Position numbers and translations under genes: made by a program. Shown here piece after piece: positions 6,627 to 63,808 of a DNA stretch of 64,000 nt. Every line of letters begins with the position of its first letter. Position 1 is the stretch's first letter. Below the pieces are notes generated by a model. The model made no database searches. It was not told where the DNA came from and worked only from the letters and a program-made list of their open reading frames with translations. Origin of the DNA: a virus; the IMG/VR virus record IMGVR_UViG_3300032046_003126, positions 1-64,000 of that record, one strand, 5' to 3'.

Positions 6627-7360
6627 AAGATAGATATCAAATAATTTTACCTGTTTATAATTGTGAAAAAACAATAATAAGAACTATAAATTCTATCTTA
6701 TATCAAACAGTTTTGGATGAAGAAACATATGAAGATTTCGGATTAACAATTATTGATAATAATTGTACAGACGAAACCATTGAAAAAATTATTAACATGG
6801 GTCATCAAATAAATTCAAAAATAGAATTTGAAATATTAGAATGCGACATAAAAGGAATAGTACCAGCATTAAACACAGGTTTGTTTAATAGTAGATTCTG
6901 TGATTATAGGTATGTTTTCAGACAAGATGGAGATGATCTTTGGTATCCAAACAAGCTTGAAAAACAGATAAATTTTTTAAAAAATAACAAAGATATAAAA
7001 ATCTTAGGAACGCAAATAAGGGCTGTCAATAACACAACACACGAACCTATAAACGAACAAATGAAACGCCCTACAAACGATTCCGAGATTAAACAATGGC
7101 TGTTTGGCAACATGAATCCGTTGGCACATCCCTCGGTTGTTTTTGATAAAGAAATTCTATTAAAAACAGGAGGATATGATGATTTTTTCCCCGTGGCAGA
7201 GGATTATGTTATGTGGTTGAAAGCATCTAAGTGGTTTAAATTTGCAAACCTAGAAGATACACTAGTGGACTACACAGTTAGTCACAATGTTAATTATGAC
7301 CCAAAAGTCGTACAAAAAGCATGTCAATTTTACAAAATATTATATAAACAACTAGGATAA
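6623..7360 (+). CDS. GT2 family glycosyltransferase
   Basis: A 245-residue, clearly GT2-like protein. ILPVYNCEKTI and the following SILYQT segment form the first conserved block; TIIDNNCTDETIE is the nucleotide-binding block. FRQDGDDLWYPNKLEKQI holds the metal-binding D-x-D (DGDD) and the conserved helix after it. NMNPLAHPSVVFDKEIL with GGYDDFFPVAEDYVMWLK fits the GT2 acceptor/catalytic region, where the ED pair supplies the general base. It overlaps the previous gene by 4 bases. It is cytoplasmic, with no transmembrane tail. Confidence 0.85.
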   Translation: MKDRYQIILPVYNCEKTIIRTINSILYQTVLDEETYEDFGLTIIDNNCTDETIEKIINMGHQINSKIEFEILECDIKGIVPALNTGLFNSRFCDYRYVFRQDGDDLWYPNKLEKQINFLKNNKDIKILGTQIRAVNNTTHEPINEQMKRPTNDSEIKQWLFGNMNPLAHPSVVFDKEILLKTGGYDDFFPVAEDYVMWLKASKWFKFANLEDTLVDYTVSHNVNYDPKVVQKACQFYKILYKQLG

Positions 7361-7363
7361 AAA

Positions 7364-7966
7364 ATGATACACTCAACAAATGATTTTTTTAAACACATTA
7401 TAAAAGTTTCTATTTGGTCAGACCCAAGCAGAAGACCAGGGTTTTTTAAGCAATACTGTGAAGGCAAAAATGTACTTCACATGGGTTGTTCGGATGCTCC
7501 GTTTCCATTTAATATACAAACAAGTTTACATTATCAATTAAGTTTATTTTGTAAAAATCTTGATGGATTTGATTTAAATTCGGACAATTTCCCTCAGATG
7601 GCCTCCGCAATTCCAGGAGGATATTTTACTGATACAAATCATTTACATGGACAAAAATGGGATGTTTGTTTAGTTCCAGAAACAATAGAGCATGTAGATA
7701 ACATTAAAGAATTTTGTGAATTTATAAATTCAATTGATGCGAAAACATTTATAATAACAGCGCCAAATGCATTTAATCCAAATAATAAAGAAAATATTTT
7801 ATTAAATGAAAACGAATATCTTGAATGTGTTCACCCTGATCACAAAGTGTGGTTCTCTCCTTATACGTTGACACATTGTATTAGAACATATATGCCTAAA
7901 GTTTCTATAAAACAAGTTTGGTTAATAGAAAAGCAACATATGGTAGCGGTGGTGTTTGAAAAATGA
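7364..7966 (+). CDS. Class I SAM-dependent methyltransferase-like protein
   Basis: A 200-residue protein with a Rossmann-like fold. NVLHMGCSDAPFPF corresponds to the glycine-rich SAM-binding motif I, in a divergent form. GFDLNSDNF supplies the acidic residue at the end of strand 2. WDVCLVPETIEHVDNI matches motif IV, with EH as in many small-molecule methyltransferases, and TFIITAPNAF fits strand 5. It sits within the sugar island, 3 bases after a GT2 gene and overlapping a GT6 gene by 4 bases, so methylation of a sugar or glycan is a reasonable inference. Confidence 0.7.
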   Translation: MIHSTNDFFKHIIKVSIWSDPSRRPGFFKQYCEGKNVLHMGCSDAPFPFNIQTSLHYQLSLFCKNLDGFDLNSDNFPQMASAIPGGYFTDTNHLHGQKWDVCLVPETIEHVDNIKEFCEFINSIDAKTFIITAPNAFNPNNKENILLNENEYLECVHPDHKVWFSPYTLTHCIRTYMPKVSIKQVWLIEKQHMVAVVFEK

Positions 7967-8646
7967 AAATAGGTTTATTAATAATTGCAACCGGAAAATA
8001 CATCCAATTTATTAATCCTTTACAGGAATCTATTAATAAATATTTTATGAAAAATCATGAAGTTACGACATTTGTTTTTACAGATTCAAAAGATTTTATG
8101 TCAAAACCAGGACAAAAAGTGATTTTTCAACAACATATTCCATGGCCTGGTTCTACATTATATAGATATAATATATTCAAAAGTAATGAAAAGAACATTG
8201 AAGAAATGGATTATTTATATTATTGTGATGCAGATATGTTATTTGTTAATGATGTTGGAGATGAAATTTTAGGTGATTTAGTAGCAACACAACATCCTGG
8301 TTTTTATAATAAACCAAGAGAATTATTCACTTACGAAACAAATCCTGAATCAAAAGCGTTTATTCCAAAAGACAAAGGAACAAAATATTTTATAGGTGCA
8401 TTTAATGGCGGCAAAACGTCAGAGTATTTAAAATTAATAACAAAATTAGCTCATAATACATCTTATGATACACGCCGTGGAATTATTGCAGTGTGGCATG
8501 ATGAATCTCACATGAATAGATATTTTATCGATAATGAACCAACTTTAATTTTGAGTCCATCGTATTGTTATCCAGAATTATTAAATATTCCATTTGAACG
8601 AAAATTATTAGCTTTAGATAAAAATCACTCGGAAATAAGAAAATGA
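7963..8646 (+). CDS. Family 6 glycosyltransferase (ABO/alpha-1,3-Gal(NAc) transferase family)
   Basis: A 227-residue catalytic domain without the membrane stem of animal enzymes. It carries many GT6 signatures: YYCDADMLFVNDV with the metal-binding DXD (Asp89, Asp91), ATQHPGFYNKPRELFTYE, SKAFIP, FIGAFNGGKTSEYL and WHDESHMNRYFI, then LSPSYCYPE. GT6 includes the human ABO transferases and alpha-1,3-galactosyltransferase, plus bacterial members that usually have NXN in place of DXD; a cyanophage member with DXD is known. The reaction is retaining transfer of Gal or GalNAc in alpha-1,3 linkage to a galactoside, often a fucosylated one. That fits the GDP-deoxyhexose genes nearby, though the actual acceptor is unknown. 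It overlaps the upstream methyltransferase by 4 bases. Confidence 0.88.
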   Translation: MKIGLLIIATGKYIQFINPLQESINKYFMKNHEVTTFVFTDSKDFMSKPGQKVIFQQHIPWPGSTLYRYNIFKSNEKNIEEMDYLYYCDADMLFVNDVGDEILGDLVATQHPGFYNKPRELFTYETNPESKAFIPKDKGTKYFIGAFNGGKTSEYLKLITKLAHNTSYDTRRGIIAVWHDESHMNRYFIDNEPTLILSPSYCYPELLNIPFERKLLALDKNHSEIRK

Positions 8647-8661
8647 AAAATAGAGGATAAA

Positions 8662-8752
8662 ATGAAAAATTTATGGGATTTTAAAAATAAAACAAGAAGA
8701 TAAAAATTATTTAGTAACAGTTTTTAATCCTTTGGAGTTTTGGAAAAGATAA
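8662..8752 (+). pseudogene. Short translated remnant or frameshifted small gene
   Basis: An ATG at 8662 follows an AGAGGA ribosome binding site but stops after 13 codons (MKNLWDFKNKTRR). In the next frame an open stretch ends in YLVTVFNPLEFWKR and its stop (8750-8752) lies directly before the ATG of the following gene at 8753. Joining both frames across the A-rich run near 8685-8700 would give a peptide of about 29 residues. This looks like a degraded or frameshifted gene remnant, or a leader peptide coupling translation to the next gene. A sequencing indel in the A run is possible. Confidence 0.35.
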
Positions 8753-9616
8753 ATGAGAAAAATATTAATATTTGGTGGAACAGGGATGATGGGAAGCATG
8801 TTGACTTCTTATCTTTTAAAAAGTGGTTGTAATATAACAATCACTTCAAGAAAACATTTAGATATACCTAATGTTGAAGTTATAGTGTTTGATGCAGAAA
8901 ATCAAAAAATACCAGATGTATCTGAATTTGATTGGATTATAAATTGTATTGGTATTATAAAACAAAGAAATCCATCTGATTGTAAAAAATATTATCAAAT
9001 AAATTCCATGTTTCCTTGGAAACTTCTAAACAAAGTTAATTTATATAATAAAAAATTAATACATATTTCTTCTGATTGTATATTTGATGGAATTTTAGAC
9101 GGCAATGAATCATATAATGTTTATGACATTCCTACAGCAACAGATGACTATGGATATTCAAAAGCACTAGGTGAGCCCGAAGGATGTATTGTGTTAAGAA
9201 CAAGTATAATAGGACCATCTAAAAGTGATTCGCTGGGGTTATTTGAATGGTTTAGAAATAATAAAGAAGAAATAATTTATGGATATAAACATTTCTGGTC
9301 TGGTGTAACAACATTAGAATTATCTAAAGTTATTGAAAAAATATTAACAAACAATTACTATCCCTCCAGAGATACAAAAAACATTTATCAAGTTTCTTTA
9401 AATGAGAGTATTTTTAAAACAACTCTTCTACAATATATAAATAAAATTTATAATCTTAAAAAAACAATTTCTAATAAAATTGCAGAAAATCCAAGTCACC
9501 AAATCATAAACAGAGGATTAAAAAATAATTTAAATGAATTATGTAACATACAAATAAAAGATATAAAAATACAATTACAAGAATTGAAAGAATGGGAAGA
9601 TAATGAAAAAAGTTAA
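8753..9616 (+). CDS. RmlD-like NAD(P)-dependent sugar-nucleotide reductase
   Basis: A 287-residue protein of the RmlD substrate-binding family. The Rossmann motif GGTGMMGSMLTSYLL is followed by FDWIINCIGIIKQ, HISSDCIFDGI (catalytic Ser-x2-Asp region) and YGYSKALGE, the Tyr-x3-Lys pair. VLRTSIIGPS and FWSGVTTLELSKVIE match the substrate half. Family members reduce 4-keto sugar nucleotides, such as dTDP-4-keto-rhamnose or the UDP-linked intermediate of L-FucNAc synthesis. A CapD/PseB-like dehydratase lies two genes downstream, so the pair could form a 6-deoxy-HexNAc branch. It overlaps the next gene by 14 bases. Confidence 0.8.
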   Translation: MRKILIFGGTGMMGSMLTSYLLKSGCNITITSRKHLDIPNVEVIVFDAENQKIPDVSEFDWIINCIGIIKQRNPSDCKKYYQINSMFPWKLLNKVNLYNKKLIHISSDCIFDGILDGNESYNVYDIPTATDDYGYSKALGEPEGCIVLRTSIIGPSKSDSLGLFEWFRNNKEEIIYGYKHFWSGVTTLELSKVIEKILTNNYYPSRDTKNIYQVSLNESIFKTTLLQYINKIYNLKKTISNKIAENPSHQIINRGLKNNLNELCNIQIKDIKIQLQELKEWEDNEKS

Positions 9617-10451
9617 AATATATTCAATACATTACAACAGACCAGATTTTATAGGTTGGCAATATGATAGTTTTAATAAATTCTTAAAAGTGAAAGATGG
9701 ATTTGAATTAATTATTGTAAATAATGCAAGAGATAATTTAATAAGAAATGAAATAAATAAAACTTGTAATTCTTATAATTTGAGAGTAATTGAAACACAC
9801 TCGGATACCCCATTTCATTTAGCTGGTAAACATCATGCTGATTCTTTAAATCATGTATGGAAAAATTATATTTGTAAAGATGATTTTGCTATGTTTTGTG
9901 ATGGTGATCTTTTTATGATTAAAGAATTTCATGTAGATAACTTTATGAAGGATGACCTTATAGCTGGTGCATATCAACATAGAGAACAAAAATATGAATA
10001 TCTTGCCCCAGTAATAGTTTTTATAAAACCAACAAAAATACCCGAACCTGAAACAATAGATTGGGAAGGTATTGGTGTTAACGGAATACGCTTAGACACT
10101 GGTGGTGGAATATATAATTATTATCTAAATCATCCTGAAGTAAAACAAAAAACAAAGCGTATATTGAATTCTTGGCACATTAAAAATGAAAATAATAATC
10201 TATTGGTGTTACCAGATGAAATAATAGAGTTATATAATGATTCATACAATATAGAATTTTTTGGAAATGAATTTCTACATTATTGTAGAAGTAGTAATTG
10301 GGACCATGAATCCGAACAACATCATTTAAAGAAAACAAATTTCGTACAATTGTTTGTATATGGATGTATAGAAAACAAAATTAACGCAAAAGAACATAAT
10401 TTTCAGATGCTTAATGATTATTATTTTGGTTGGGGCAAGATAGAAAAATGA
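9603..10451 (+). CDS. Putative GT-A-fold glycosyltransferase
   Basis: A 282-residue protein. KIYSIHYNRPDFIGWQYDSF and FELIIVNNARDN follow the GT-A opening pattern of a strand, an Arg/Asn-Pro turn and a second strand ending in acidic residues. AMFCDGDLFMI holds a D-x-D (DGD) metal motif. HLAGKHHADSLNHVW before it is rich in His. After it LDTGGGIYNYYL and GNEFLHYCRSSNWDHES are likely donor or acceptor loops. It overlaps both neighbours, showing operon membership. The specificity is unknown. Confidence 0.6.
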   Translation: MKKVKIYSIHYNRPDFIGWQYDSFNKFLKVKDGFELIIVNNARDNLIRNEINKTCNSYNLRVIETHSDTPFHLAGKHHADSLNHVWKNYICKDDFAMFCDGDLFMIKEFHVDNFMKDDLIAGAYQHREQKYEYLAPVIVFIKPTKIPEPETIDWEGIGVNGIRLDTGGGIYNYYLNHPEVKQKTKRILNSWHIKNENNNLLVLPDEIIELYNDSYNIEFFGNEFLHYCRSSNWDHESEQHHLKKTNFVQLFVYGCIENKINAKEHNFQMLNDYYFGWGKIEK

Positions 10452-52408: not shown

Positions 52409-53409
52409 TTTTTACTCAAGGACAATTTATTGATTTTATAGAAACCGTATTTGGTAAAGGTATTTTATCAAATGGAGGGAAAAATATATCTGTTGTTTGT
52501 CCGGTTTGTACCAGAGAAAAAGGAACACAGTATAATAAAAAAAAGTTAGTCATTAGAACAGACAATGGAATTAATCATTGTTGGGTTTGTTCTTATAAAT
52601 CTAAAAATCTATTAGCATTAATAAAAATAACTAATCCTGAATTTCTTGAAGAATACAAAACAACATTTAACAATATCACCACAAACAGTAGATGTTTTAT
52701 TTTAGATATAGATGATGTTGAAAGAACAACAACTTCAACGGATTTTGAAGACATTCTTTTTTTGCCTAAAAAAACAATGCTTTTAGCAGACAATTATAAA
52801 ACATATCATGGAAATAAATATTTTAACTACCTTAGAAAAAGGGGAATTACAGAGATAGAAGACTTATGGTATTGGAAGTTTTTATATACGGTATTTGACG
52901 AAGACTATAAAGATAGAATAATAATACCTTCTTTTGATTCGACGGGCACATTGAATTATTTTACAGCAAGAAGTTTGTTTGATGGGGCTTATGTTAAAAG
53001 ATATAAAAATCCTATAAAATCAAGAGAATCAATTATATTCAATGATATAAATATAGATTGGCAAAATCCACTTACTCTAGTTGAAGGTCCGTTTGATTTA
53101 GTTAAATGCAATCAAAATGCAACATGTCTATTGGGTTCAGTTATTAATATAAAATATGAATTATTTCAAAATATTATAATAAATAATACTCCAATAATAC
53201 TTGGGTTGGATGAAGACGCAACAAACAAGGCTATAAAAATAGCAGAAAATTTATTACGGTACGATATTGATGTCAGTATGATTACGCCTCCAACAAATAA
53301 AGATGTTGGAGATTTATCCAAAGAAGAGTTTAATGATTTATATCAACAAACTCATGTTTTAACAAAAAAAGATTTACTTCTTTACAAAATAAGGAATATT
53401 CAATTATAA
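52405..53409 (+). CDS. DnaG-type DNA primase (gp61-like)
   Basis: A 334-residue primase. The N-terminal zinc-binding part has CPVC and CWVC pairs (around residues 32 and 59). The TOPRIM domain shows LTLVEGPFDL with the catalytic Glu and IILGLDEDATN with the D-x-D pair. T4 gp61 has the same architecture and works with helicase gp41 to prime lagging-strand synthesis. It overlaps the RuvC-like gene by 4 bases and the recombination gene by one base, which places replication and recombination in one transcript. Confidence 0.85.
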   Translation: MIFTQGQFIDFIETVFGKGILSNGGKNISVVCPVCTREKGTQYNKKKLVIRTDNGINHCWVCSYKSKNLLALIKITNPEFLEEYKTTFNNITTNSRCFILDIDDVERTTTSTDFEDILFLPKKTMLLADNYKTYHGNKYFNYLRKRGITEIEDLWYWKFLYTVFDEDYKDRIIIPSFDSTGTLNYFTARSLFDGAYVKRYKNPIKSRESIIFNDINIDWQNPLTLVEGPFDLVKCNQNATCLLGSVINIKYELFQNIIINNTPIILGLDEDATNKAIKIAENLLRYDIDVSMITPPTNKDVGDLSKEEFNDLYQQTHVLTKKDLLLYKIRNIQL

Positions 53410-56400
53410 TGAAAAAAGAAATTAAAATAATACAAATAAGTGATTTACACTGGCGCGGAAATACACGTCATGAAGAATATACAAAATCTTTTGAGTTGTT
53501 GTTTGAACAGTTAAAAGAAATTAAACCAGATTTTATTGTTTGTACAGGAGATGTATTTCATACTAAAACCCAAGGACTCACAAATGAGGTTGTTGAACGT
53601 ATGGCATGGATGTTTAGAAGCTTGGACAAGATAGCTCCCGTTAGGACAATACTTGGAAATCACGACGGAAACCTTAAGAACGAACAAAGACAAGACGCTG
53701 TTACGCCTATTTTTGAAGCAATTGGTTCTGAACCAAGAAATATTTTATATAAAAAATCTGGAAACTATATCGAGCAATTCGATGATAGAATTAATTGGTG
53801 TGTATTTTCTTGTTTTGACAAAGAAAATTGGAATTTGGTATCTCCACAAAAAGACAAAATCAATATAGCACTATACCACGGAAGTATTTCGGGTTGCGTT
53901 GTAGGAAGCAATCACTCTTTAGAACATGGAGAAGAAAGTATTTCCAAGTTTACCAAATATGATTTTGGTTTATTTGGGGATATTCACAAAACTCAATTTC
54001 TTTCTTACAGAAAAGACAAAAACAAAAAAGATAAACCATGGGCCGGGTATCCTGGTTCTTTAATTCAACAAAATCATGGAGAAGAAGAACAAAAGGGATT
54101 TCTTTTATGGACAATAAGAGATACCAAAGATTGGGATGTGAACTTCATTGAAGTAGAGAATGAACGACCATTTTTTACATCTGAATGGAACACCTCAGTA
54201 AAAGGTACTGTTGATTTAATTTTAGAAAAAAGAAAGATAATTAAACAAAATTCTAGAATAAGAATTTTTTCTAATAAAAAAATATCGGCTATAGAAGTAA
54301 AACAATTAACCGAAATATTAAAAAAAGATTATCAAGCCGAAGAAGTATCTTTTAAAATAGATACAAAGGAAAAAATAGATAAAATAAAAACAGGAAACGT
54401 AGAAGCATCAAAAGATAATTTGAGAACAAACACCGAGGTCATTGTTGATTTATATAGAGAATTTGTTGATAAAAATAAAAAGAAAAATTCATTATCTGAA
54501 GAAAATATGCTAATAGCCGAAGAAACAATCAAGGCTTATATTAAAAAAATCGAAGAGGACAACCCAGACGAATCGGCCAAAAATGTTGTTTGGGATTTGA
54601 AAAAAATTGAATTTGATAATGTTTTTAGATATGGCGAAGGTAATTGTATAAATTTCGATAACTTAAGTGGGATTGTTGGTATTTTTGGTCCTAATAGAAT
54701 AGGTAAGAGTTCAATACCAGGAGCTTTAATGTATGGATTGTTCAATACAACCGATCGTGGCCCAATGAAAAATGGCCACATGATTAAAGAAGGAACCAGA
54801 GAGTGTAAAGCAAAAGTACAATTCCAAGTAAATGAAGAAATGTTTTTCGTAGAACGATCTTCGGCATTAGAAGAATCAAAAAAGAAAACAATAGATGATT
54901 CATATAAAACAAGTACAGATTTAAATTTTTATAAAATTGACAAGGAAGACAATATTGTTTCTCTTAATTTAGACGATCGTGACAATACAGATAAAAACAT
55001 AAGAAAAACAATAGGAACAGCAGAAGATTTTCTCATGACATCTTTTTCATCTCAAGGTGACATTAATAGATTTATCAATGAAGGTTCTACAAAAAGAAAA
55101 GAATTGTTGTCAAAATTTCTAAATTTAGATATTTTCAAAACTCTATCGGTTATTGCCAAAGAAGATTTAAATTCTTACAATGCAATAGCTAAAAAATATA
55201 TTAGTATAAATTTCGACCAAGATATTAAAGATTTAGGAAATCAAATAAGTGAAAATAATTCTTTATTAGAATTATATGAGAATAAAATTCTTGAAACAGA
55301 AAACAAATTACAAGATATAAAAACACAATTGTTAATTTATGAACAAAAATTTGATTTTGATTCCTTAAGAACTCTTGAAAGAGATTTGGAACAAAAAGAA
55401 AAAGAATATCAAACAATAAAAAATCTAAAAGAAGAAACTGAAACTAATATAACCAATGTTAGAAAACAAGAAATAAATCTAAAAAAACAACTGGATTCTT
55501 TAGATATACAAAGCCTGGAAGAGAAGATTGAGAAGATGCAGTCTTTAAGGGCTCTAGCAGCCGACATACAGGCTTCTTTTAAGATAGAGACTAATACATT
55601 AGAGCAACAAGAGAAAACGCTTAAAAAGCTAACTGTGGTGCCTTGTGGTGATTCATATCCAACTTGCACCTATATCAAGGATGCACATGAAAATAAAACA
55701 CTGATCGTAGAACAACAAAGCAAAGTCTCGGAGTTAAAAAATAAGTTAAAAGACTTTGAGTTAATAGCAAAAGAATTTATAGAACAAAAAATTGCAGAAA
55801 AATATAAAGAAAGTAAATTGTTAACAGAACAATTAACACAGTTTAAAAATAAATCAGATGTTTTAAATGAAAGATTTAATAATATTAATTTATCTAAAAT
55901 AATAGAAGAAAAAAATAAAATTAATGATAAATTAAATAAAACAAAACAAAAAATAAATTCTGATGATTTAGGAAAAAAAGAAGATTTGCAAGAATCACAC
56001 AAGGTTTTATCTTCACAAATGAGAGAATTTATTAATAATAAAAACGAATCTCTAATTTCTGTAGGTTCTTTGAATCAAAAAATGCAGACTGCCGTTCTTC
56101 AAAAGAAAGAATTGGCAGATTTAATAGAAAAAACAAATATCCAACAAACTGTATATAATGCGTTTTCTAAAACAGGTATACCAACCATGGTCCTAGAATC
56201 ACAACTTCCTGCTATAAATCAAGAATTGCAAAAAATTCTAGCAGGAGTATCTGATTTTCAAATTGAAATAGTGGCTTCATCTACTTCAAATGCAATGGAT
56301 GTTTATATTATCAACGGAACATCAAGAAGAATAATCGAAACTGCATCAGGGATGGAAAAAATGTTATGCTCTCTTGCTCTACGTGTTGCCTTGAATAACT

Positions 56401-56615
56401 TATCTTCTATGCCTAAATCAAATATATTTATCATAGATGAAGGATTTGGAGTATTAGATGAACAAAATATTAGCTTATGTTTACAAATGTTAAATACTTT
56501 AAAAACTTATTATAAAACAATTTTAATCATAACTCATATATCTGAAGTAAAAGAAATTGTGGATAACATTATCGAAATTAAAGATTTCAACGGAGAATCT
56601 TATGTCTATATCTGA
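53409..56615 (+). CDS. Mre11-Rad50 (SbcD-SbcC, gp47-gp46) fusion protein
   Basis: A 1068-residue protein combining both recombination subunits in one chain. Residues 1-340 are the Mre11 phosphodiesterase: SDLHW (12-15), GDVFH (47-51), GNHDG (83-87), YHGSISG and GDIHKTQ, all metal-binding motifs. From about residue 395 the Rad50 ATPase begins with Walker A GPNRIGKSS (427-435), the Q-loop near TSFSSQGDINRF, long coiled coils around a hook PCGDSYPTC (Cys746, Cys753), a signature ASGMEKM, Walker B FIIDEGFG (Asp1010, Glu1011) and the H-loop ITHIS. In T4 gp47 and gp46 are two genes. The fusion forces equal amounts of both activities for resection in recombination-dependent replication. Confidence 0.9.
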   Translation: MKKEIKIIQISDLHWRGNTRHEEYTKSFELLFEQLKEIKPDFIVCTGDVFHTKTQGLTNEVVERMAWMFRSLDKIAPVRTILGNHDGNLKNEQRQDAVTPIFEAIGSEPRNILYKKSGNYIEQFDDRINWCVFSCFDKENWNLVSPQKDKINIALYHGSISGCVVGSNHSLEHGEESISKFTKYDFGLFGDIHKTQFLSYRKDKNKKDKPWAGYPGSLIQQNHGEEEQKGFLLWTIRDTKDWDVNFIEVENERPFFTSEWNTSVKGTVDLILEKRKIIKQNSRIRIFSNKKISAIEVKQLTEILKKDYQAEEVSFKIDTKEKIDKIKTGNVEASKDNLRTNTEVIVDLYREFVDKNKKKNSLSEENMLIAEETIKAYIKKIEEDNPDESAKNVVWDLKKIEFDNVFRYGEGNCINFDNLSGIVGIFGPNRIGKSSIPGALMYGLFNTTDRGPMKNGHMIKEGTRECKAKVQFQVNEEMFFVERSSALEESKKKTIDDSYKTSTDLNFYKIDKEDNIVSLNLDDRDNTDKNIRKTIGTAEDFLMTSFSSQGDINRFINEGSTKRKELLSKFLNLDIFKTLSVIAKEDLNSYNAIAKKYISINFDQDIKDLGNQISENNSLLELYENKILETENKLQDIKTQLLIYEQKFDFDSLRTLERDLEQKEKEYQTIKNLKEETETNITNVRKQEINLKKQLDSLDIQSLEEKIEKMQSLRALAADIQASFKIETNTLEQQEKTLKKLTVVPCGDSYPTCTYIKDAHENKTLIVEQQSKVSELKNKLKDFELIAKEFIEQKIAEKYKESKLLTEQLTQFKNKSDVLNERFNNINLSKIIEEKNKINDKLNKTKQKINSDDLGKKEDLQESHKVLSSQMREFINNKNESLISVGSLNQKMQTAVLQKKELADLIEKTNIQQTVYNAFSKTGIPTMVLESQLPAINQELQKILAGVSDFQIEIVASSTSNAMDVYIINGTSRRIIETASGMEKMLCSLALRVALNNLSSMPKSNIFIIDEGFGVLDEQNISLCLQMLNTLKTYYKTILIITHISEVKEIVDNIIEIKDFNGESYVYI

Positions 56616-56911: not shown

Positions 56912-57313
56912 ATGACTGTAAAAAATTACAACAAGTATCTAGAACTTTCAAAAGTATTCAACGAAACCTTTGGAGCAAAAAATAAAATGGATAATACCGT
57001 ATTCACAGATATGGTAAGAACAAGACTTATTGATGAAACAAAAGTTAGTGTCATGTACATCACTGTTGTAAATCTTCAAAGAGAAGACCAGTGGCTCGAA
57101 TTATCAAATAAATTCACCAGTGATGCCGTAGAAATAATAAGAAATTATCTTAAAAAAGCAACAGAGGAATATAAAAAAAATACGGATGATAAAATTAAGT
57201 TTACAATAGATTCAAAGTCTGTTAAGTTCGATGTAGAGTTTCTAAACTACAATATATTAAGGACAAACAGGAATGCATACTTCAGAGTTTATTGCGACGC
57301 CGAAATCGACTAA
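56912..57313 (+). CDS. Unknown protein upstream of the packaging genes
   Basis: A 133-residue protein with a helical N-terminus and a beta-rich C-terminus (KFTIDSKSVKFDVEFLNY). No known motif is seen. It lies where small terminase or packaging accessory genes often occur, and its last 41 bases overlap the start of the terminase-like gene, but nothing in the sequence confirms a packaging role. Confidence 0.5.
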   Translation: MTVKNYNKYLELSKVFNETFGAKNKMDNTVFTDMVRTRLIDETKVSVMYITVVNLQREDQWLELSNKFTSDAVEIIRNYLKKATEEYKKNTDDKIKFTIDSKSVKFDVEFLNYNILRTNRNAYFRVYCDAEID

Positions 57314-57977
57314 AGAAATAATTTTATTGTCTGTTTTGAACGAATATCCTTTTAATCCTCTTGAAAAAGATAAAGAATATTTAGGATTAAATTATTGCCA
57401 AAAAACAATATTTGAATTAGATTTTAAAAAAGAAAAAATAATTTTTTTAAAAGAAAGACAAAAAGGTTGTACGGTCGCTCTGTTAGCTCATGCGGTGGAA
57501 TCGTTAAAACAAAATAAAAATTATTCTATTTTGTTTTTAACAGAATCATCAATGATTGAGTTATATAAGACTTATTGTTTGTTTCTCATGGGCGACAAGA
57601 ATAACACAAAACACATAAAAAATAAAATAAAAATAAATAATTCTTCTATTGAATTTAGTAGTGGAAAACATATCAATAATAATTTCTTTCATGGCAAAAC
57701 ATATGATCTTGTTGTTTGGGATGAAATTCGTATAAAAGAATTTTTACTTCTTAAATCAAATTTTAATAAAAATTTCATTGGAACAAGTACCATCTTAGAT
57801 AATAATATTAAAATTATCCCTGACAGATATTGTAATTTACATATTTTTAAAGATTTATGGAATATAAATGAACCAAATTTAAACGTTTTGCCTGTATATT
57901 TACAATTACTACCAGATCTAACACAAGAATCTGAATTCGTAGGTAAAAGTTTAATAGAAAATTATGGCAGATTCTAA
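57273..57977 (+). CDS. Divergent TerL ATPase-like protein (short)
   Basis: A 234-residue protein with an AAGGA site about 9 bases upstream. It aligns by eye with the ATPase domain of the TerL that follows: IIFLKERQKGCTVALLAHAVESL resembles TerL's ITNKSRQLGLSTISAAYALWMSL (Walker A region), NYSILFLTESSMIELY matches the next strand, and YDLVVWDEI parallels TerL's IIIIDE (Walker B). There is no nuclease domain. It overlaps TerL by 14 bases. It might be an inactive or regulatory ATPase subunit, a partial duplication, or a helicase-like protein. I know of no described role. Confidence 0.5.
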   Translation: MHTSEFIATPKSTKEIILLSVLNEYPFNPLEKDKEYLGLNYCQKTIFELDFKKEKIIFLKERQKGCTVALLAHAVESLKQNKNYSILFLTESSMIELYKTYCLFLMGDKNNTKHIKNKIKINNSSIEFSSGKHINNNFFHGKTYDLVVWDEIRIKEFLLLKSNFNKNFIGTSTILDNNIKIIPDRYCNLHIFKDLWNINEPNLNVLPVYLQLLPDLTQESEFVGKSLIENYGRF

Positions 57978-58560
57978 TAAAAAAATTCAACGTAAACAAG
58001 ATCAAATTGAAGAAATAATAAAATGCGGAAAAGAACCTTCTTATTTTATTAAAAACTATGTTAAAATACCTCATCCAATGAGAGGACTTGTTCCTTTTGA
58101 GACATTCCCATATCAGGACGATTGTTTGGAAATGTTTCAATCTCACAGACTCGTTATCACTAATAAGTCTCGTCAGTTAGGGTTATCCACAATATCTGCC
58201 GCATATGCCCTGTGGATGTCTTTGTTTTATAAAGAAAAAAACATAATAGTAATTGCAACAAAATTGGAAACAGCAAAAGAATTTATCGTTAAAGTTAAAA
58301 CAATGCTTGATTCCCTACCACCATGGTTAGTTCTACCAAAACTAACAGGAGAGTCTGTTAGATATCTTAATTTTTCTAATGGTTCTAAAATAAAAGCAAT
58401 GTCTACATCAAAAGACGCAGGCCGTTCTCAGGCCGCATCCATAATTATTATAGATGAGTGTTTGGATGCTACTAGTAAGATAACTCTACGAAATAAACTG
58501 ACAGGCGAAATGAAAGAAATTTCAATTGTCGATTTGTTTAATGAAGAAATATATGAATAA
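57964..58560 (+). CDS. terL: Terminase large subunit, N-terminal part fused to N-intein
   Basis: A 198-residue precursor: 165 residues of the TerL ATPase domain plus a 33-residue N-intein. Extein motifs are YFIKNYVKIPHP, TFPYQDDCLEMF (adenine region), VITNKSRQLGLSTISA (Walker A), IIVIATKLETAKEF and the Walker B strand IIIIDE, after which the reading frame enters the intein at Cys (58459). T4 gp17 has DECAFIPNFH there, which the downstream gene supplies as CAHIENF. The gene ends in a stop at 58558-58560, so TerL activity needs trans-splicing with the product at 60552. Confidence 0.9.
   Translation: MADSNKKIQRKQDQIEEIIKCGKEPSYFIKNYVKIPHPMRGLVPFETFPYQDDCLEMFQSHRLVITNKSRQLGLSTISAAYALWMSLFYKEKNIIVIATKLETAKEFIVKVKTMLDSLPPWLVLPKLTGESVRYLNFSNGSKIKAMSTSKDAGRSQAASIIIIDECLDATSKITLRNKLTGEMKEISIVDLFNEEIYE
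58459..58557 (+). mobile_element. N-terminal fragment of a split intein (33 aa)
   Basis: The fragment starts CLDATSKITL with the nucleophile Cys at position 1 and ends at a stop after 33 residues. It covers only splicing block A and a short strand, unlike the usual about 100-residue N-intein. This atypical split, with a very short N-part and a long C-part, is the arrangement of the AceL-TerL class, found in TerL genes. The cognate C-part (60552-60929) shows the same class. Confidence 0.88.
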
Positions 58561-58645
58561 AAAAATATATGTCTGTATGTTCTTTATAAGAAATTTTGTT
58601 ATGTTAACATTCTCACATGAATATTAAAATTATAGATGGAGAATT

Positions 58646-60610
58646 ATGACCAAACAAAGAGAAATTTTATCAAACGGAATTCTTTTTAATTGTGAGTTAT
58701 GTGATAAAAAAGATATGAAATCAACAGGGTTTTCGAATCATGTTAATAGTATGCATGTGAAAAAAGAAAATATTTCTTCTTTAGAAGAATATTATAAGTT
58801 ATATATAAATTTAAAATGGGGCAATTCAAATAATTTATGTAAATTTTGTAATAAAGAAACAAAGTTTATGTCAATTTTCGAAGGATACTCAGAGTTTTGC
58901 TCGCATCAGTGTTCGGTGTCTACTACTGAACATAAAGAATTAATTAAAGTAAATTATAAAATTTCTATGTTGGAAAAATACGGAGTAGAACATTCAAGTA
59001 AACTTTCTGGATTTGGTGATAAGGTTAAAGCTACTAAGCTAAAAAAACATGGGGATGAAAATTTTAACAATATTGAAAAAGCAAAATTAACTAATCTGGG
59101 TCGCTATGGTGTAGAAAATTATGCTAAATCTAATGAATATGTTGAAAAAACAAAAGCAACATCACTGGAAAAATATGGTGTAGAACACTTTACACAAAAC
59201 GAAGAAGTTAAAAACAAAACAAAACTAACTAATTTAGATCGTTATGGTTTTGAAAATCCAATGAAAAACGTTGAAATATATAATAAATCAAAAGAAACTA
59301 ATTTAAAAAGATATGGCGTAAAACATGCTACTCAATATGAATTTTTTAGAAATAAAACAAAAAAAACTTTAATGGAAAAATATGGAGTTGACAGTCCTTT
59401 AAAATTATTTCATACAAGATTAAAATCAAAAACATCTATAAGAAAAAAGTTTGAAGATAATTTTAATTTTTTAGAACAAACTAAATTAAAACTATTAGAT
59501 TCAAATGAATTAAAATTTAAATGTCTTGTTTGTAACAATGATTTTATTTTTGAACCCGAAGGGGAATATAAATATTTATCTTCTAATTCTTCTACACCTT
59601 CAAGGTTTCCTCATTGTAAAATATGCAATCCCGTTGGAGCACGAGATGGTTCATCAATTCAAAAAGAAATTTATTCTTATATTTGTTCTTTTTTTGATAA
59701 AGAGAAAATTAAAATAAACGATAAAAGTATATTAAAAAACATAAACAAACAAGTTGATATTTATATAGAAAATAAAAATATTTCTTTTGAAATAAATGGT
59801 TTATATTGGCATTCTGAGATTGGCGGCAACAAAGGAAAAACATATCATGTTAATAAAACAAATTTATCAGAAGCAAAAAATATTAAATTAATTCATATTT
59901 TTGAAGATGAAATTAATGATAAAAATAAAATAATTAAATCAAAATTAGATTATCTATTAAATAATACAAAAAATTCTAAATCAATAGGCGCAAGAAAATG
60001 TGTTATTAAAAAAACAAATAAAAAAGAATACTTTGATTTTTATGAAAACAATCACTTACAAGGGAAAGTTATAGGAGGAAATATTTCATATGGTGCATTT
60101 TATAATAATGAACTTGTTGCCTGTATGACGTTTGGCCAAGAAAGAATTTCTTTAGGCAGCAAGAATCATACAAACAAAAACGAGTTTGAGTTGCTTAGAT
60201 TTTGTACAAAAATAGGATATGTAATTCCTGGTGTAGCGAGCAGGTTATTTAGTCGTTTTATAAAAGAAAATAATCCCAATAAAATCATATCTTATGCTGA
60301 TAGAAGATGGAGTAGTTCTATTAATAAAGACACCGTTTATCAAAAACTTGGTTTTACAGAGGTTCATAAATCTGAACCAAATTACTTTTATTTGCTTAAA
60401 GAAGATAATTATAGGAAAAGACATAACAGATATAAATTTAGAAAATCAGAACTAAATAGGTTATTATCTATATACGACCCAGCGTTATCAGAGTGGGAAA
60501 ATATGAAAAATAATGGACACGATAGAATCTGGGATTGTGGGACAATAAAATATGAGTGGAAAAACAAAACCGTACAAGAAAATATCGAATTGGGAAGTTC
60601 TAACTCCTAA
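58646..60610 (+). mobile_element. Free-standing homing endonuclease between the two terminase halves
   Basis: A 654-residue protein with a GGAG ribosome binding site. The N-terminus has two zinc-finger-like pieces (NCELCDKKDM and CKFCNK with CSHQCS). Seven repeats of about 24 residues (pattern L-x-KYGVEH/RYGVEN ... KTK-x-T) occupy residues about 112-275. A Cys4-type site (CLVCNNDF, HCKICNP) precedes a Vsr/EDxHD nuclease core with QVDIYIENKN and FEINGLYWHSE. The C-terminal domain (ARKCVIKKTNKKEYFDFY, GAFYNNELVACMTFG, SYADRRWSSS) is shared by phage Hef-like endonucleases. The gene fractures TerL and overlaps the start of the C-intein ORF by 59 bases. Confidence 0.88.
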
Positions 60611-60929
60611 AGGCTTTAAGTCATTTTCGGGTATTAAAAAAGTAAACAAAGAATATTCTTTAAAATTCACAACAGAATTTGACAAAGAAATAACCTGTTC
60701 TGGTGGTCATCAACTTTATGTAAAAAGAGAACTAGAAGGTCAAGAGTCTGAGGAAATGTTTTGTTTTGCTGATATGATTGAGCCTTATACAGATAAAATA
60801 AAAAACAAAGTTGGAGAATATGAAACTGTTATTGAGATAGAAAAAACAGAAAAAGAAATTGATTTATTTGATCTTGTTGATGTAGAAGATGGATATGAGT
60901 ATTACGCCAATGATTTATTAAGTCATAAT
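60552..60929 (+). mobile_element. C-terminal fragment of the split intein (126 aa)
   Basis: It holds splicing blocks downstream of the short N-fragment: NWEVLTPKGFKSFSGIKK, a SGGHQLYV (His) block B, and the C-terminal YYANDLLSHN, ending in His-Asn with Cys as the +1 residue. The order and lengths match AceL-TerL. Trans-splicing with the N-fragment would rejoin IIIIDE with CAHIENF in the Walker B region of TerL. Confidence 0.88.
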
Positions 60930-62900
60930 TGTGCTCACATTGAGAACTTTTCTGAGTTGTGGACCGGCCTTCAGCCCACAATATCTTGTGTGACTGGTGA
61001 TACATTAATATTAACAGATAATGGATTTGAAAAAATAGAAGATTTTCATAAAACACATAATGTTGGAGATTATTTTAAACTAGAAATACCAATTTATGGA
61101 AAAAATGGAATGGAAAAAACGTCTCACGGATATGTTTCACCTGAATCAGATACCATTATTATAAGAACCAAACATGGACATGAAATAGAATGTACTCTAA
61201 AACATCCATTGTTTGTGTATCAAAATGGTAAAAATGATGGAGTGATGATCGAATCTCGAAATATTACGATAGGTAATAAGTTGAGAATTCAAACAGGAAT
61301 GAAGTGTTATGGAACCAATACTAAAAACATAACATTATTGGAGGCCAAAAACACAGCATTAAAATATTCCAAGTCATTAATTTTTGATGAAAATTTGGAT
61401 TTAGATAGTGATATCTTGACCGCAAATGAAATATTTGTAAAAAATTATTTAAAAGAACTTATCAAAATCTGTTGTGTGGAAACAATAGAAACCATAAATA
61501 AAAAAATATTTAAAATAGAAATTAAAAGTAAAGGTTTTATAAAAAAACTTAATTTACTTTTTCATAACGATGGATATAAATCATATATTTTAAAAGAAAA
61601 AGAAAAAATCTTTCTTTGTGTTCCATTTGAAGAAACGAAAGATAATTTTTATTGGGATGAAATTGTTTCTATTGATAAATCTAAAAATAAAACATATGAT
61701 TTTACAGTTCCAAAAACACATACTTTTTTACAAAACGGAATTTTAGGAAGCAACACAGGAGGCTCTGCTATTTTAATTTCTACTCCTTTGGGAATTGGAA
61801 ATCAATTCCATAGCATATGGGCAAAAGCAACAGATAAAAACTTTGACCCGGCCAATATTAAAACAAACGAAGAGGGTTCAAATAAGTTTTATGCGATAGA
61901 ATTACCATGGACAGTACATCCCGAAAGAGATCAAGAATGGTATGAATCGCAGTGTTCCGAGTTGGGAAATGATCCTCGTCGTATTTCCCAGGAACTTTTA
62001 TGTGCTTTTAATTCATCTGGTAACAATTTCATTGACAGTAAAATATTAGAATATTTAAAAACACAACTTAAAACTCCAATTGCGAGATATGGCAATGGCA
62101 ACGATATGAATATATGGGAATATGCAAAACCAGGCCATAAATATATAATCTCAGCTGACGTAGCTCGTGGAGATTCGGAAGATTTTTCAACAGCTTGGAT
62201 TATAGATGCAGACACTAATATCTGTGTAGCTGATTTTAAAAGCAAAATACCTCCTGATAGATTTGCAGAATTTTTAGTTGATATTGGAGAAAAATACAAC
62301 AAAGCATTTATTGTCAACGAGATTAATAGTGTCGGGGTAGCTACTTCTTTTGCGTTGAAGACATTAAAATATCAAAATTTATATTTTGAAAAACTCTTTA
62401 ATGGTTCAATTGAAAACAACTATACACAAGATATGATAGGAGACTTAATCCCAGGATTTAATACTAATGTTAAATCCAGAGTAGAAATAATGACAAAATT
62501 TGAGGCTGCAATAAGAAATAAAGAAATACAAGTATATTCTGATAGGCTTATTAAAGAACTCGAAACATTTATTTGGGATGGGAAAAAAGCAAAGGCTTTA
62601 AAAGGCTACAATGACGACTTAATAATGGCGTTAGCAATAGGAGTTAACTTTATCAATTGGGGGGCCGCTAGAAGCACGTATGACGATGGTGCAAGTATAA
62701 TGGCTATGATTCAAGGAATGTCAAAGAACTCTAGAACTCTAGAACAATTAACCAAACAACAATCAGAGCCCAATACAGTAGATTGGGGTAATATTGGCTT
62801 TGATCTGCCATCCAAGGGAAGTATTTATTCTAATTCTAATACTAAAAATAATATTTTTGTAGGAGGAACAAGAATTCCAAGTTGGATTAAACAAAGTTAA
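60552..62900 (+). CDS. terL: Terminase large subunit, C-terminal part with C-intein and an internal intein
   Basis: A 782-residue precursor. It starts with the C-intein (126 residues, residues 1-126), then 19 terminase residues beginning with CAHIENF, then a complete second intein (256 residues), then 381 residues of TerL. The last part opens with GGSAILISTPLGIGNQFHSIW (coupling motif and hinge) and continues with the RNase H-type nuclease: ISADVARGDSED (Asp), VNEINSVG (Glu) and YNDDLIMALA (Asp). Together with the N-part the mature TerL has 565 residues, close to T4 gp17 (610). The enzyme powers DNA translocation into the head and cuts concatemers. The first start ATG is at 60552; a Shine-Dalgarno is not obvious. 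Confidence 0.92.
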   Translation: MSGKTKPYKKISNWEVLTPKGFKSFSGIKKVNKEYSLKFTTEFDKEITCSGGHQLYVKRELEGQESEEMFCFADMIEPYTDKIKNKVGEYETVIEIEKTEKEIDLFDLVDVEDGYEYYANDLLSHNCAHIENFSELWTGLQPTISCVTGDTLILTDNGFEKIEDFHKTHNVGDYFKLEIPIYGKNGMEKTSHGYVSPESDTIIIRTKHGHEIECTLKHPLFVYQNGKNDGVMIESRNITIGNKLRIQTGMKCYGTNTKNITLLEAKNTALKYSKSLIFDENLDLDSDILTANEIFVKNYLKELIKICCVETIETINKKIFKIEIKSKGFIKKLNLLFHNDGYKSYILKEKEKIFLCVPFEETKDNFYWDEIVSIDKSKNKTYDFTVPKTHTFLQNGILGSNTGGSAILISTPLGIGNQFHSIWAKATDKNFDPANIKTNEEGSNKFYAIELPWTVHPERDQEWYESQCSELGNDPRRISQELLCAFNSSGNNFIDSKILEYLKTQLKTPIARYGNGNDMNIWEYAKPGHKYIISADVARGDSEDFSTAWIIDADTNICVADFKSKIPPDRFAEFLVDIGEKYNKAFIVNEINSVGVATSFALKTLKYQNLYFEKLFNGSIENNYTQDMIGDLIPGFNTNVKSRVEIMTKFEAAIRNKEIQVYSDRLIKELETFIWDGKKAKALKGYNDDLIMALAIGVNFINWGAARSTYDDGASIMAMIQGMSKNSRTLEQLTKQQSEPNTVDWGNIGFDLPSKGSIYSNSNTKNNIFVGGTRIPSWIKQS
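60987..61754 (+). mobile_element. Second, complete intein in terL (256 aa)
   Basis: The intein begins CVTGDTLILTDNGFEKIEDF (block A, Cys1), has HGHEIECTLKHPLFVYQ (block B with T-x2-H), and ends YDFTVPKTHTFLQNGILGSN with a terminal Asn and Thr as the +1 residue. The junction restores LQPTIS-TGGSAILISTP, the TerL coupling motif. It lies only 19 extein residues after the split intein. The middle shows no clear LAGLIDADG motif; FIKKLNLLFHNDGYKS may be a decayed one. The residue before the final Asn is Ser rather than the usual His. Confidence 0.9.
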
Positions 62901-62914
62901 AAACAAACATGGTC

Positions 62915-62937
62915 TTGTAAAAGATTTTCGTTTACAA
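62915..62937. repeat. Inverted repeat TTGTAAA ... TTTACAA
   Basis: A perfect 7-base inverted repeat with a 9-base loop lies between terL and the ATP-grasp gene. Its right arm includes the TTTACA -35 box of the candidate promoter that follows, so it could be an operator. It is not followed by a T run, which argues against a terminator. Confidence 0.4.
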
Positions 62938-62959
62938 CCTTGTGTTGGCGTGTTATACT
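62931..62959 (+). promoter_or_regulatory. Candidate sigma70-type promoter (TTTACA - 17 - TATACT) of the ATP-grasp gene
   Basis: TTTACA (62931-62936) and TATACT (62954-62959) are separated by the ideal 17 bases. The transcript would start near 62966, the ATG itself, and no ribosome binding site precedes that ATG, so the mRNA may be leaderless. This is the best promoter-like sequence in the window. Confidence 0.5.
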
Positions 62960-62965
62960 TTGGAT

Positions 62966-63808
62966 ATGAAAAATCCAGTCATTTTAATGAGAGCTTCACT
63001 CGCAGAAGAAAAAGAATTACTCATAGCAAAAAAATATTTTGATGTGTATGAAAATCGATGTTCAATACCAGAAAATTCTCTAGTAATTCCTAGATTTTCA
63101 TATCTTCCATTTCCAAAAGAATTTGAAGAAGACATGAAATATAAAAATTGTGATGTTATAAACACATACAGACAACATCGTTATATAGCAGATTTATCTA
63201 ACTGGTATCAAGACCTTGAAGACATAACTCCAAAAACATGGTTTAGATTTGAAGATGTGCCCAAACACTGTGGGCCTGTTGTTTTAAAGGGAGAAACAAA
63301 TAGTAAAAAGTATTTTTGGCATACTCACATGTATGCTGAGAATTGGGATGCTGCAAATAAAGTATTTAGTAATTTAATGATGGATAGTTTAATTGGAGCA
63401 CAGAATATCTACATTAGAGAGTATGTGCCACTAAAAACATTTGATTATGATGTGACCGGCATTCCTATCACAGAAGAATATAGATTTTTCATATTAGATG
63501 GAAAAGTTGTAACGTCAGGATTTTATTGGTCTTCACATTGTGAATTATTAGAAAATAAGGAACTGAATATAAATCCTGATAATGTTCCGAAAGAATTCAT
63601 TCGGGATATTATCGACAGAGTTGGAAAAAATTCAAGATTTTTCGTTGTTGATGTAGCCAGAGCACAAACTCCTTATAATCCTTTATATAATCAACATGGT
63701 TTAGGAGAATGGATTGTTGTGGAGTTAAACGACGGCATGATGTCAGGAATATCAGAAAATGATCCAAATGTGTTGTATTCAAACATGAAAGATGTTTTAA
63801 CAAAATGA
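62966..63808 (+). CDS. ATP-grasp domain protein
   Basis: A 280-residue protein with the ATG at 62966; an upstream GTG at 62942 would place the -10 box in the coding sequence. The ATP-grasp fold is suggested by GPVVLKGETNSKKYFWH (nucleotide-binding strand), IYIREYVPL, EYRFFILDGKVVTSGFYW and the metal-binding end VVDVARAQ and WIVVELNDG, placed as in the DUF4343 group. Family members ligate carboxylates or amines, and phage ones have unknown targets. The next gene starts inside its last codons (ATGA). Confidence 0.7.
   Translation: MKNPVILMRASLAEEKELLIAKKYFDVYENRCSIPENSLVIPRFSYLPFPKEFEEDMKYKNCDVINTYRQHRYIADLSNWYQDLEDITPKTWFRFEDVPKHCGPVVLKGETNSKKYFWHTHMYAENWDAANKVFSNLMMDSLIGAQNIYIREYVPLKTFDYDVTGIPITEEYRFFILDGKVVTSGFYWSSHCELLENKELNINPDNVPKEFIRDIIDRVGKNSRFFVVDVARAQTPYNPLYNQHGLGEWIVVELNDGMMSGISENDPNVLYSNMKDVLTK

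Follow-up and report, generated by a model that had tools for sequence, protein, structure and literature searches.

The locus described here lies in a stretch of viral DNA of 64,000 nucleotides, hereafter the window (bases 1-64000 of the 87,181-base IMG/VR virus record IMGVR_UViG_3300032046_003126), in which the large terminase subunit (TerL) is encoded in two pieces. The upstream gene, TerL-N, ends in a short N-intein placed directly behind the Walker B motif, the downstream gene, TerL-C, opens with a C-intein and carries a second, contiguous intein further on, and a free-standing homing endonuclease (HEN) gene occupies the gap (Table 1; splice junctions are marked by a slash). The layout is thus that of a fractured gene, with TerL halves ending and starting in split-intein parts and an endonuclease gene between them. 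The ATG at 60552 is the sole start codon upstream of the C-intein core. An earlier note, made from the sequence alone, had read the locus as a TerL split at Walker B by a split intein with an endonuclease in the gap; every part was found in place, its sizes for the N-intein (33 aa), C-intein (126 aa), HEN (654 aa) and overlap (59 bases) were correct, and so, by computation, was its product of 565 amino acids (aa) for a mature TerL without both inteins.

Table 1. Features of the split TerL locus and dispersed TerL halves of two Campylobacter phages (positions refer to the window unless a phage is named).
Feature	Position	Strand	Length and landmarks	Evidence
TerL-N gene	57964-58560	+	198 aa = 165 extein + 33 intein, junction IIIIDE/CLDATS	
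TerL N-extein	57964..58458	+	165 aa, Walker A SRQLGLST, Walker B IIIIDE at end	
N-intein	58459..58557	+	33 aa, CLDATSKITLRNKLTGEMKEISIVDLFNEEIYE, Cys1; stop codon 58558-58560	Alignment with N-inteins of relatives
Spacer, TerL-N stop to HEN start	58561..58645	+	85 nt	
Free-standing HEN gene	58646..60610	+	654 aa	Pfam DUF7487, phrog_3339, 3r3p profile match, AlphaFold2 (AF2)/Foldseek
TerL-C gene	60552-62900	+	782 aa	
Overlap, HEN 3' end and TerL-C start	60552..60610	+	59 nt, different frames	
C-intein	60552..60929	+	126 aa, C-terminus LLSHN, then CAHIENF	CatC match, alignment, AF2, Foldseek
C-extein segment 1	60930..60986	+	19 aa, CAHIENFSELWTGLQPTIS, Cys+1	Gap-free against intein-free TerLs
Second, contiguous intein	60987..61754	+	256 aa, CVTGDT...GILGSN, then TGG; endonuclease region shrunken	Pfam Intein_splicing, TIGR01445/TIGR01443
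C-extein segment 2	61755..62897	+	381 aa, remaining ATPase and nuclease domain; stop 62898-62900	phrog_2 terminase, TerL relatives
Phage PC5 (L006, L110), TerL N-half	99273-99989	+		
Phage PC5 (L006, L110), TerL C-half	72400-73728	-		
Phage CP39, TerL N-half	68949-69662	-		
Phage CP39, TerL C-half	93501	+		

The N-half matched Terminase_6N (E=5.3e-9) and phrog_5989 terminase (E=4.7e-45), its extein sharing 61-66 % aa identity with relatives, and a single TerL ATPase match was obtained in the whole 87-kb record, with no second TerL ATPase domain. When the exteins were joined, no gap opened at either junction in an alignment of the resulting 565-aa TerL to its uninterrupted counterparts from Microcystis phage Mel-JY01 and Flavobacterium phage immuto. 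In the nearest TerLs from viral contigs (L195-L202, 63-66 % identity over the N-extein), the Walker B site is empty and reads LIIDEAAHVDG. The residue following DE was Ala in 39/39 intein-free TerLs scored (L115-L122 and others), a set that includes many near relatives and does not stand for 39 independent events, and Cys in the window and in the syntenic viral contig L223, as a +1 nucleophile requires. Because of this difference, the intein element seems to have brought the +1 Cys into the TerL lineage of the window and L223; among T4-like phages, the intein-free allele of Shewanella phage Thanatos-1 already reads DEC.

By sequence, the C-intein matches CatC in the PDB (E=1.3e-8), Cat being an engineered consensus of GOS-TerL and AceL-TerL. 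An AF2 model of the C-intein, built on an alignment of 33 relatives, had a mean predicted local distance difference test score (pLDDT) of 92.7, and its best PDB match in Foldseek was again Cat (6dsl, E=1.1e-7, TM 0.71/0.75), with gp41-1 and further Hint folds ranking next. The residues expected for splicing are all present, namely Cys1, block B His53, block F Asp107, the penultimate His125, the terminal Asn126 and Cys+1. A PDB search with the 33-residue N-intein alone gave no match, the query being too short. In contiguous relatives, such as the intein found at the identical DE/C site in Desulfovibrio phage 7757, a loop connects the first helix to the strand Y/W-EVLTP, and the break lies within this loop. 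AceL and GOS-TerL are split at the S2 position (PMC13014065), and the window break corresponds to that position because it falls in the loop that contiguous relatives bridge. Judged from sequence and predicted fold, the window intein is an atypically split intein of the AceL/GOS/Cat kind, with which it shares a TerL host, a short N-intein (33 residues, against 25, 37 and 30 in AceL, GOS and Cat), a long C-intein, a split located behind the first helix, and Cys1 paired with Cys+1. The insertion site differs, as the AceL/Cat type sits at EFE/CEFLGS and the window intein at Walker B DE/CAH; the kinship with AceL-TerL suggested in the earlier note therefore holds for sequence and fold but not for position in TerL, and the window intein is a relative of the AceL/Cat type at a different insertion-site allele.

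The gap gene matched the homing endonuclease family phrog_3339 (E=1.7e-118). Residues about 100-265 consist of DUF7487 repeats (Pfam E=3.2e-26), and residues about 335-440 form an EDxHD/Vsr-like nuclease domain in which D371, E382, H389 and H401 are invariant. A profile of the 18-member HEN family matched 3r3p (E=2.9e-6) over the invariant D371, E382 and G385 (D + E-x-N-G), which places the HEN in the EDxHD (I-Bth0305I) family by profile; 3r3p, named 'Mobile intron protein' in the PDB, is the I-Bth0305I catalytic domain. For the C-terminal third (about 445-654, the domain itself at about 445-640; window 59978-60607) a GNAT fold was predicted with high confidence, its best PDB match being phage Mu Mom; at the sequence level a GNAT enzyme matched weakly (E=3.3e-4). 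This domain is conserved over the HEN family (phrog_3339, phrog_559), and DNA recognition or modification are its candidate roles. Fractured genes combining split inteins with EDxHD homing endonucleases were reportedly described by Dassa et al. in 2009; in these as in the window locus, a split intein interrupts the host gene and a free-standing endonuclease gene occupies the gap. The nuclease there is of the I-Bth0305I type, to which the window HEN adds the DUF7487 repeats and the GNAT/Mom-like domain.

An endonuclease gene inside terL could also be carried by a group I or II intron, with the terL mRNA spliced at the RNA level, and such arrangements have precedents: ICP1 terL has an intron (PMC10448857), and terL of Campylobacter phage IBB_35 has been described as interrupted by an intein and a HEN-bearing intron (PMC3322345). 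However, a scan of 57200-63000 against Rfam returned no family at E<=1, hence no intron RNA core, and the ends of the insert are coding intein halves with their own stop and start codons. Conservation of these halves would be left unexplained because RNA removal would discard both of them, and the probability given to this explanation is close to negligible.

The locus was found to be conserved in L223, where the split, the site and the HEN family are the same, every frame is open and the gene order matches the window (SbcC-like protein, zinc-finger-like open reading frame (ORF), small ORF, TerL-N, HEN, TerL-C). The two loci shared 61 % aa identity in the N-extein, 48 % in the N-intein, 37 % in the HEN, 43 % in the C-intein and 46 % in the C-extein. 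Taken together with the TerL family matches of both halves and the CatC match of the C-intein, this recurrence lies far beyond what chance would give. Since the window derives from a metagenomic assembly, the fracture might in principle reflect a chimeric contig or a frameshifted, decayed version of a continuous intein gene; yet all frames are open and the layout recurs, both in L223 and, around different endonucleases, across many independent assemblies and cultured phage genomes, making an artefact or pseudogene extremely improbable.

Among cultured phages, a tblastn search with the C-intein of Yersinia phage TG1 matched 35 phage records, a number that includes several RefSeq/GenBank duplicates. 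The matches included TG1 itself and Yersinia phage phiR1-RT, E. coli phages PD112, HY03 and JEP6, Salmonella phage SG1, Pseudomonas phage PspYZU05, Shewanella phage Thanatos-2, krischviruses, Desulfovibrio phage 7757 and others. In the T4-like gp17 proteins (TG1, phiR1-RT, PD112, HY03, Thanatos-2) the split intein occupies the same DE/C codon boundary and an endonuclease gene lies in the gap or is fused to the N-half; these proteins differ from the window in TerL lineage, in their endonuclease (TnsA-like, about 200 aa, phrog_15427) and in their N-intein of 41-43 aa. The earlier note had presented the split TerL as a new natural member with all parts in one locus, and the membership stands, whereas the single locus is not special, the fractured TerL being shared by cultured T4-like phages. 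Between TG1 and PD112 the proportions of nonsynonymous and synonymous differences (pN/pS) were 0.096/0.86 for the N-intein, 0.099/0.73 for the C-intein and 0.088/0.66 for the endonuclease, which indicates strong purifying selection on the two intein halves and on the endonuclease.

This selection bears on the possibility that an endonuclease simply broke terL and that the halves work unspliced, in the manner of nrdA split by mobE, with the intein ends as dead remnants. Unspliced genes in pieces are known, a phage ribonucleotide reductase being cited in a passage of PMC10448857. Against such an origin, both intein halves of the window retain all catalytic positions, the halves are conserved in L223 to the level of the C-extein in addition to the selection seen in T4-like phages, and the break parts the Walker B catalytic Glu from the remaining ATPase core. 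Unspliced function is accordingly regarded as very unlikely.

Empty and filled terL alleles both exist, in the window lineage and in the Thanatos pair. In Thanatos-2 (L005) an insert of 1265 nt lies exactly between GAA/TGT of terL and is lacking in Thanatos-1 (L102); the joined exteins of Thanatos-2 are identical to the Thanatos-1 TerL at 610/611 residues, and the flanking DNA differs by 12-13 %. The insert was read by its authors as causing a frameshift (PMC7530303). A further arrangement was observed in Campylobacter fletcherviruses (PC5, CP39, CPX, CP81), where the TerL halves are separate genes on opposite strands, about 22-26 kb apart (examples in Table 1), in contrast to the single locus of the window. 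Here too the N-half ends in DE/CVAGDTKITVRNKKTG... and the C-half opens with a matching C-intein ending SHN/CAF. The two halves occur in 39 and 44 Campylobacter phage records, about 40 with both, and their distant loci imply that joining or association in trans is needed.

When viral contigs were scanned with the C-intein family alignment, 136 relatives were obtained and 80 kept; a single-protein scan of these contigs with the window C-intein gave no matches, so that an alignment query was needed. The relatives sit at several TerL sites, A at Walker B (DE/CAF or DE/CAH), B further on at EFE/CEFLGS, and C, which precedes Walker B by a few residues, together with single Walker A cases. Contig L042 matched both CatN and CatC (47.9 and 188 bits) and is located at site B, its EFE extein being that of the crystal construct. 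Mapped on a tree of 51 C-inteins, the insertion sites required 8 changes against 22.3 when shuffled, indicating that C-intein lineages are largely site-specific; the window fell on no starred branch of this tree, in which clustering by site alone is clear. N-inteins at site A range from 30 to 43 residues and published N-parts from 16 in VidaL through 25 in AceL and 30 in Cat to 37 in GOS-TerL (PMC13014065, PMC11766414), so that the 33-residue N-part, which the earlier note had valued for comparing minimal N-inteins, is of typical length and not minimal, with VidaL and AceL shorter.

The content of the gap also varies. Members of the window HEN family fill the corresponding gap in both L223 and L012; a TnsA-like nuclease (phrog_15427) is found at the Walker-B site in T4-like phages, L018 and L022, with similar genes seen by eye in L026 and L079; L011 encodes a DUF7487 protein whose tail is TnsA-like; MobE is among the other nucleases found at this site in other phages; and in L008, L009 and L010 the gap of 77-106 nt contains no gene. 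One type of split intein is therefore served by several endonucleases, or by none.

Several relatives showed further variations. In some environmental phages TerL comes in three pieces accompanied by two endonuclease genes. Three-piece terminases in which one split intein lies at Walker B and another at a CEFLGS-type site were seen in L027 (4369-8712), with a gene in each gap and thus five consecutive genes for one TerL, and in L018 (4345-7861), where the second gap lacks a gene and the first contains one. In L012 (66-5777; also L013) TerL is fractured at both Walker A (RQIGK/C) and Walker B (DE/C), with an endonuclease gene per gap. The Walker-B split intein of L085 (4372-4770 and 5998-7704) combines Ser1 (DE/SLYGSS) with Cys+1, an unusual nucleophile pair reported for GOS-TerL.

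The second intein of the window, at TIS/TGG, is a shrunken version of the intein that L199 carries at this position (within frame 6965-10009), which measures 436 aa and has LAGLIDADG-type motifs. The intein at TIS/TGG in Salicola phage SCTP-2 is likewise shrunken. The SCTP-2 TerL also carries a split-intein C-part; it differs in being split at SQ/CDEF (terminal Gln), with an HNH-like gene upstream and the N-part elsewhere.

On these comparisons, TerL is very probably made as two proteins that are ligated by split-intein trans-splicing, with the HEN in the gap serving homing. The two proteins would be translated separately, and the 33-residue N-intein would dock into the 126-residue C-intein, completing the Hint fold. 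Trans-splicing through Cys1, Cys+1 and the terminal Asn would then link IIIIDE to CAHIENF and restore the Walker B segment, and excision of the second intein in cis would leave one 565-residue TerL. The HEN is expected to cut intein-free terL alleles, and mixed infection would allow the cassette of N-intein, HEN and C-intein to be copied into them. The anatomy, the homologies, the catalytic residues, the exact fit of the exteins, the two allele states and the recurrence are read directly from sequences, whereas splicing, cutting and homing are inferred, on the strength of homology and of how the alleles are distributed. Several points weigh against this account: the window locus comes from an environmental assembly; the N-intein starts divergently, with CLDATS in place of the C..GDT of most relatives; the penultimate residue of the second intein is Ser and not the usual His, although Ser is also found in L199 and SCTP-2; association of the TerL halves with no ligation is conceivable in principle; and selection is only loosely measured between the window and L223 (intein omega 0.3-0.5), where synonymous sites are near saturation, for which reason the selection argument rests on TG1/PD112.

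Beyond a mere parasite, the Walker-B split intein might have been retained as a packaging checkpoint. As the break follows the catalytic Glu, neither half would hydrolyse ATP and the motor would be active only after the halves splice; survival in many lineages, including the HEN-less L008-L010 and the Campylobacter phages with halves 24-26 kb apart, would in that case stem from packaging regulation. This proposal is improbable.

Around the split genes, a 234-aa ORF (window 57273-57977), absent from the syntenic L223, overlaps the start of TerL-N by 14 nt. By eye it resembles a degenerate TerL ATPase core (ERQKGCTVALL, DLVVWDEI), with HMMER E=0.001 in a single-target search and no significant result against TerL in hhalign. 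A 1068-aa ORF (window 53409-56615) has a metallophosphoesterase-like N-terminus (phrog_1649) followed by an SbcC-like part (phrog_77) and is an apparent fusion of two SbcD/SbcC-type (T4 gp47/gp46-like) subunits, and an ATP-grasp protein of the R2K family (PF14243, PF18299) lies immediately 3' of TerL-C (window 62942-63808). Promoter-like sites near the genes were at chance level (37 vs 36.0 in shuffled sequence); terminator-like sites numbered 5 against 1.6 expected, of which three are minus-strand sites and the other two, on the plus strand, fall within reading frames.

The ingredients of this locus are known, since TerL split inteins, short N-parts and fractured genes with EDxHD endonucleases all have precedents, and a passage of the TaPaz paper (PMC8228797, citing Dassa 2009) names terminases as common intein targets. 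In the searchable papers no description was found of the Walker-B split intein, the T4-like split-intein members or the dispersed Campylobacter halves; subscription papers lie outside this set, and an earlier description is possible. The split-intein family around the window locus is more interesting than the locus itself. It adds a Walker-B lineage of natural split inteins whose N-parts are short, a resource for comparison and engineering in protein ligation, and many culturable phages have the same split TerL, mostly unrecognised. Because Thanatos-1 and Thanatos-2 form a minus/plus pair with a laboratory host, trans-splicing of TerL and HEN-driven homing are directly testable.

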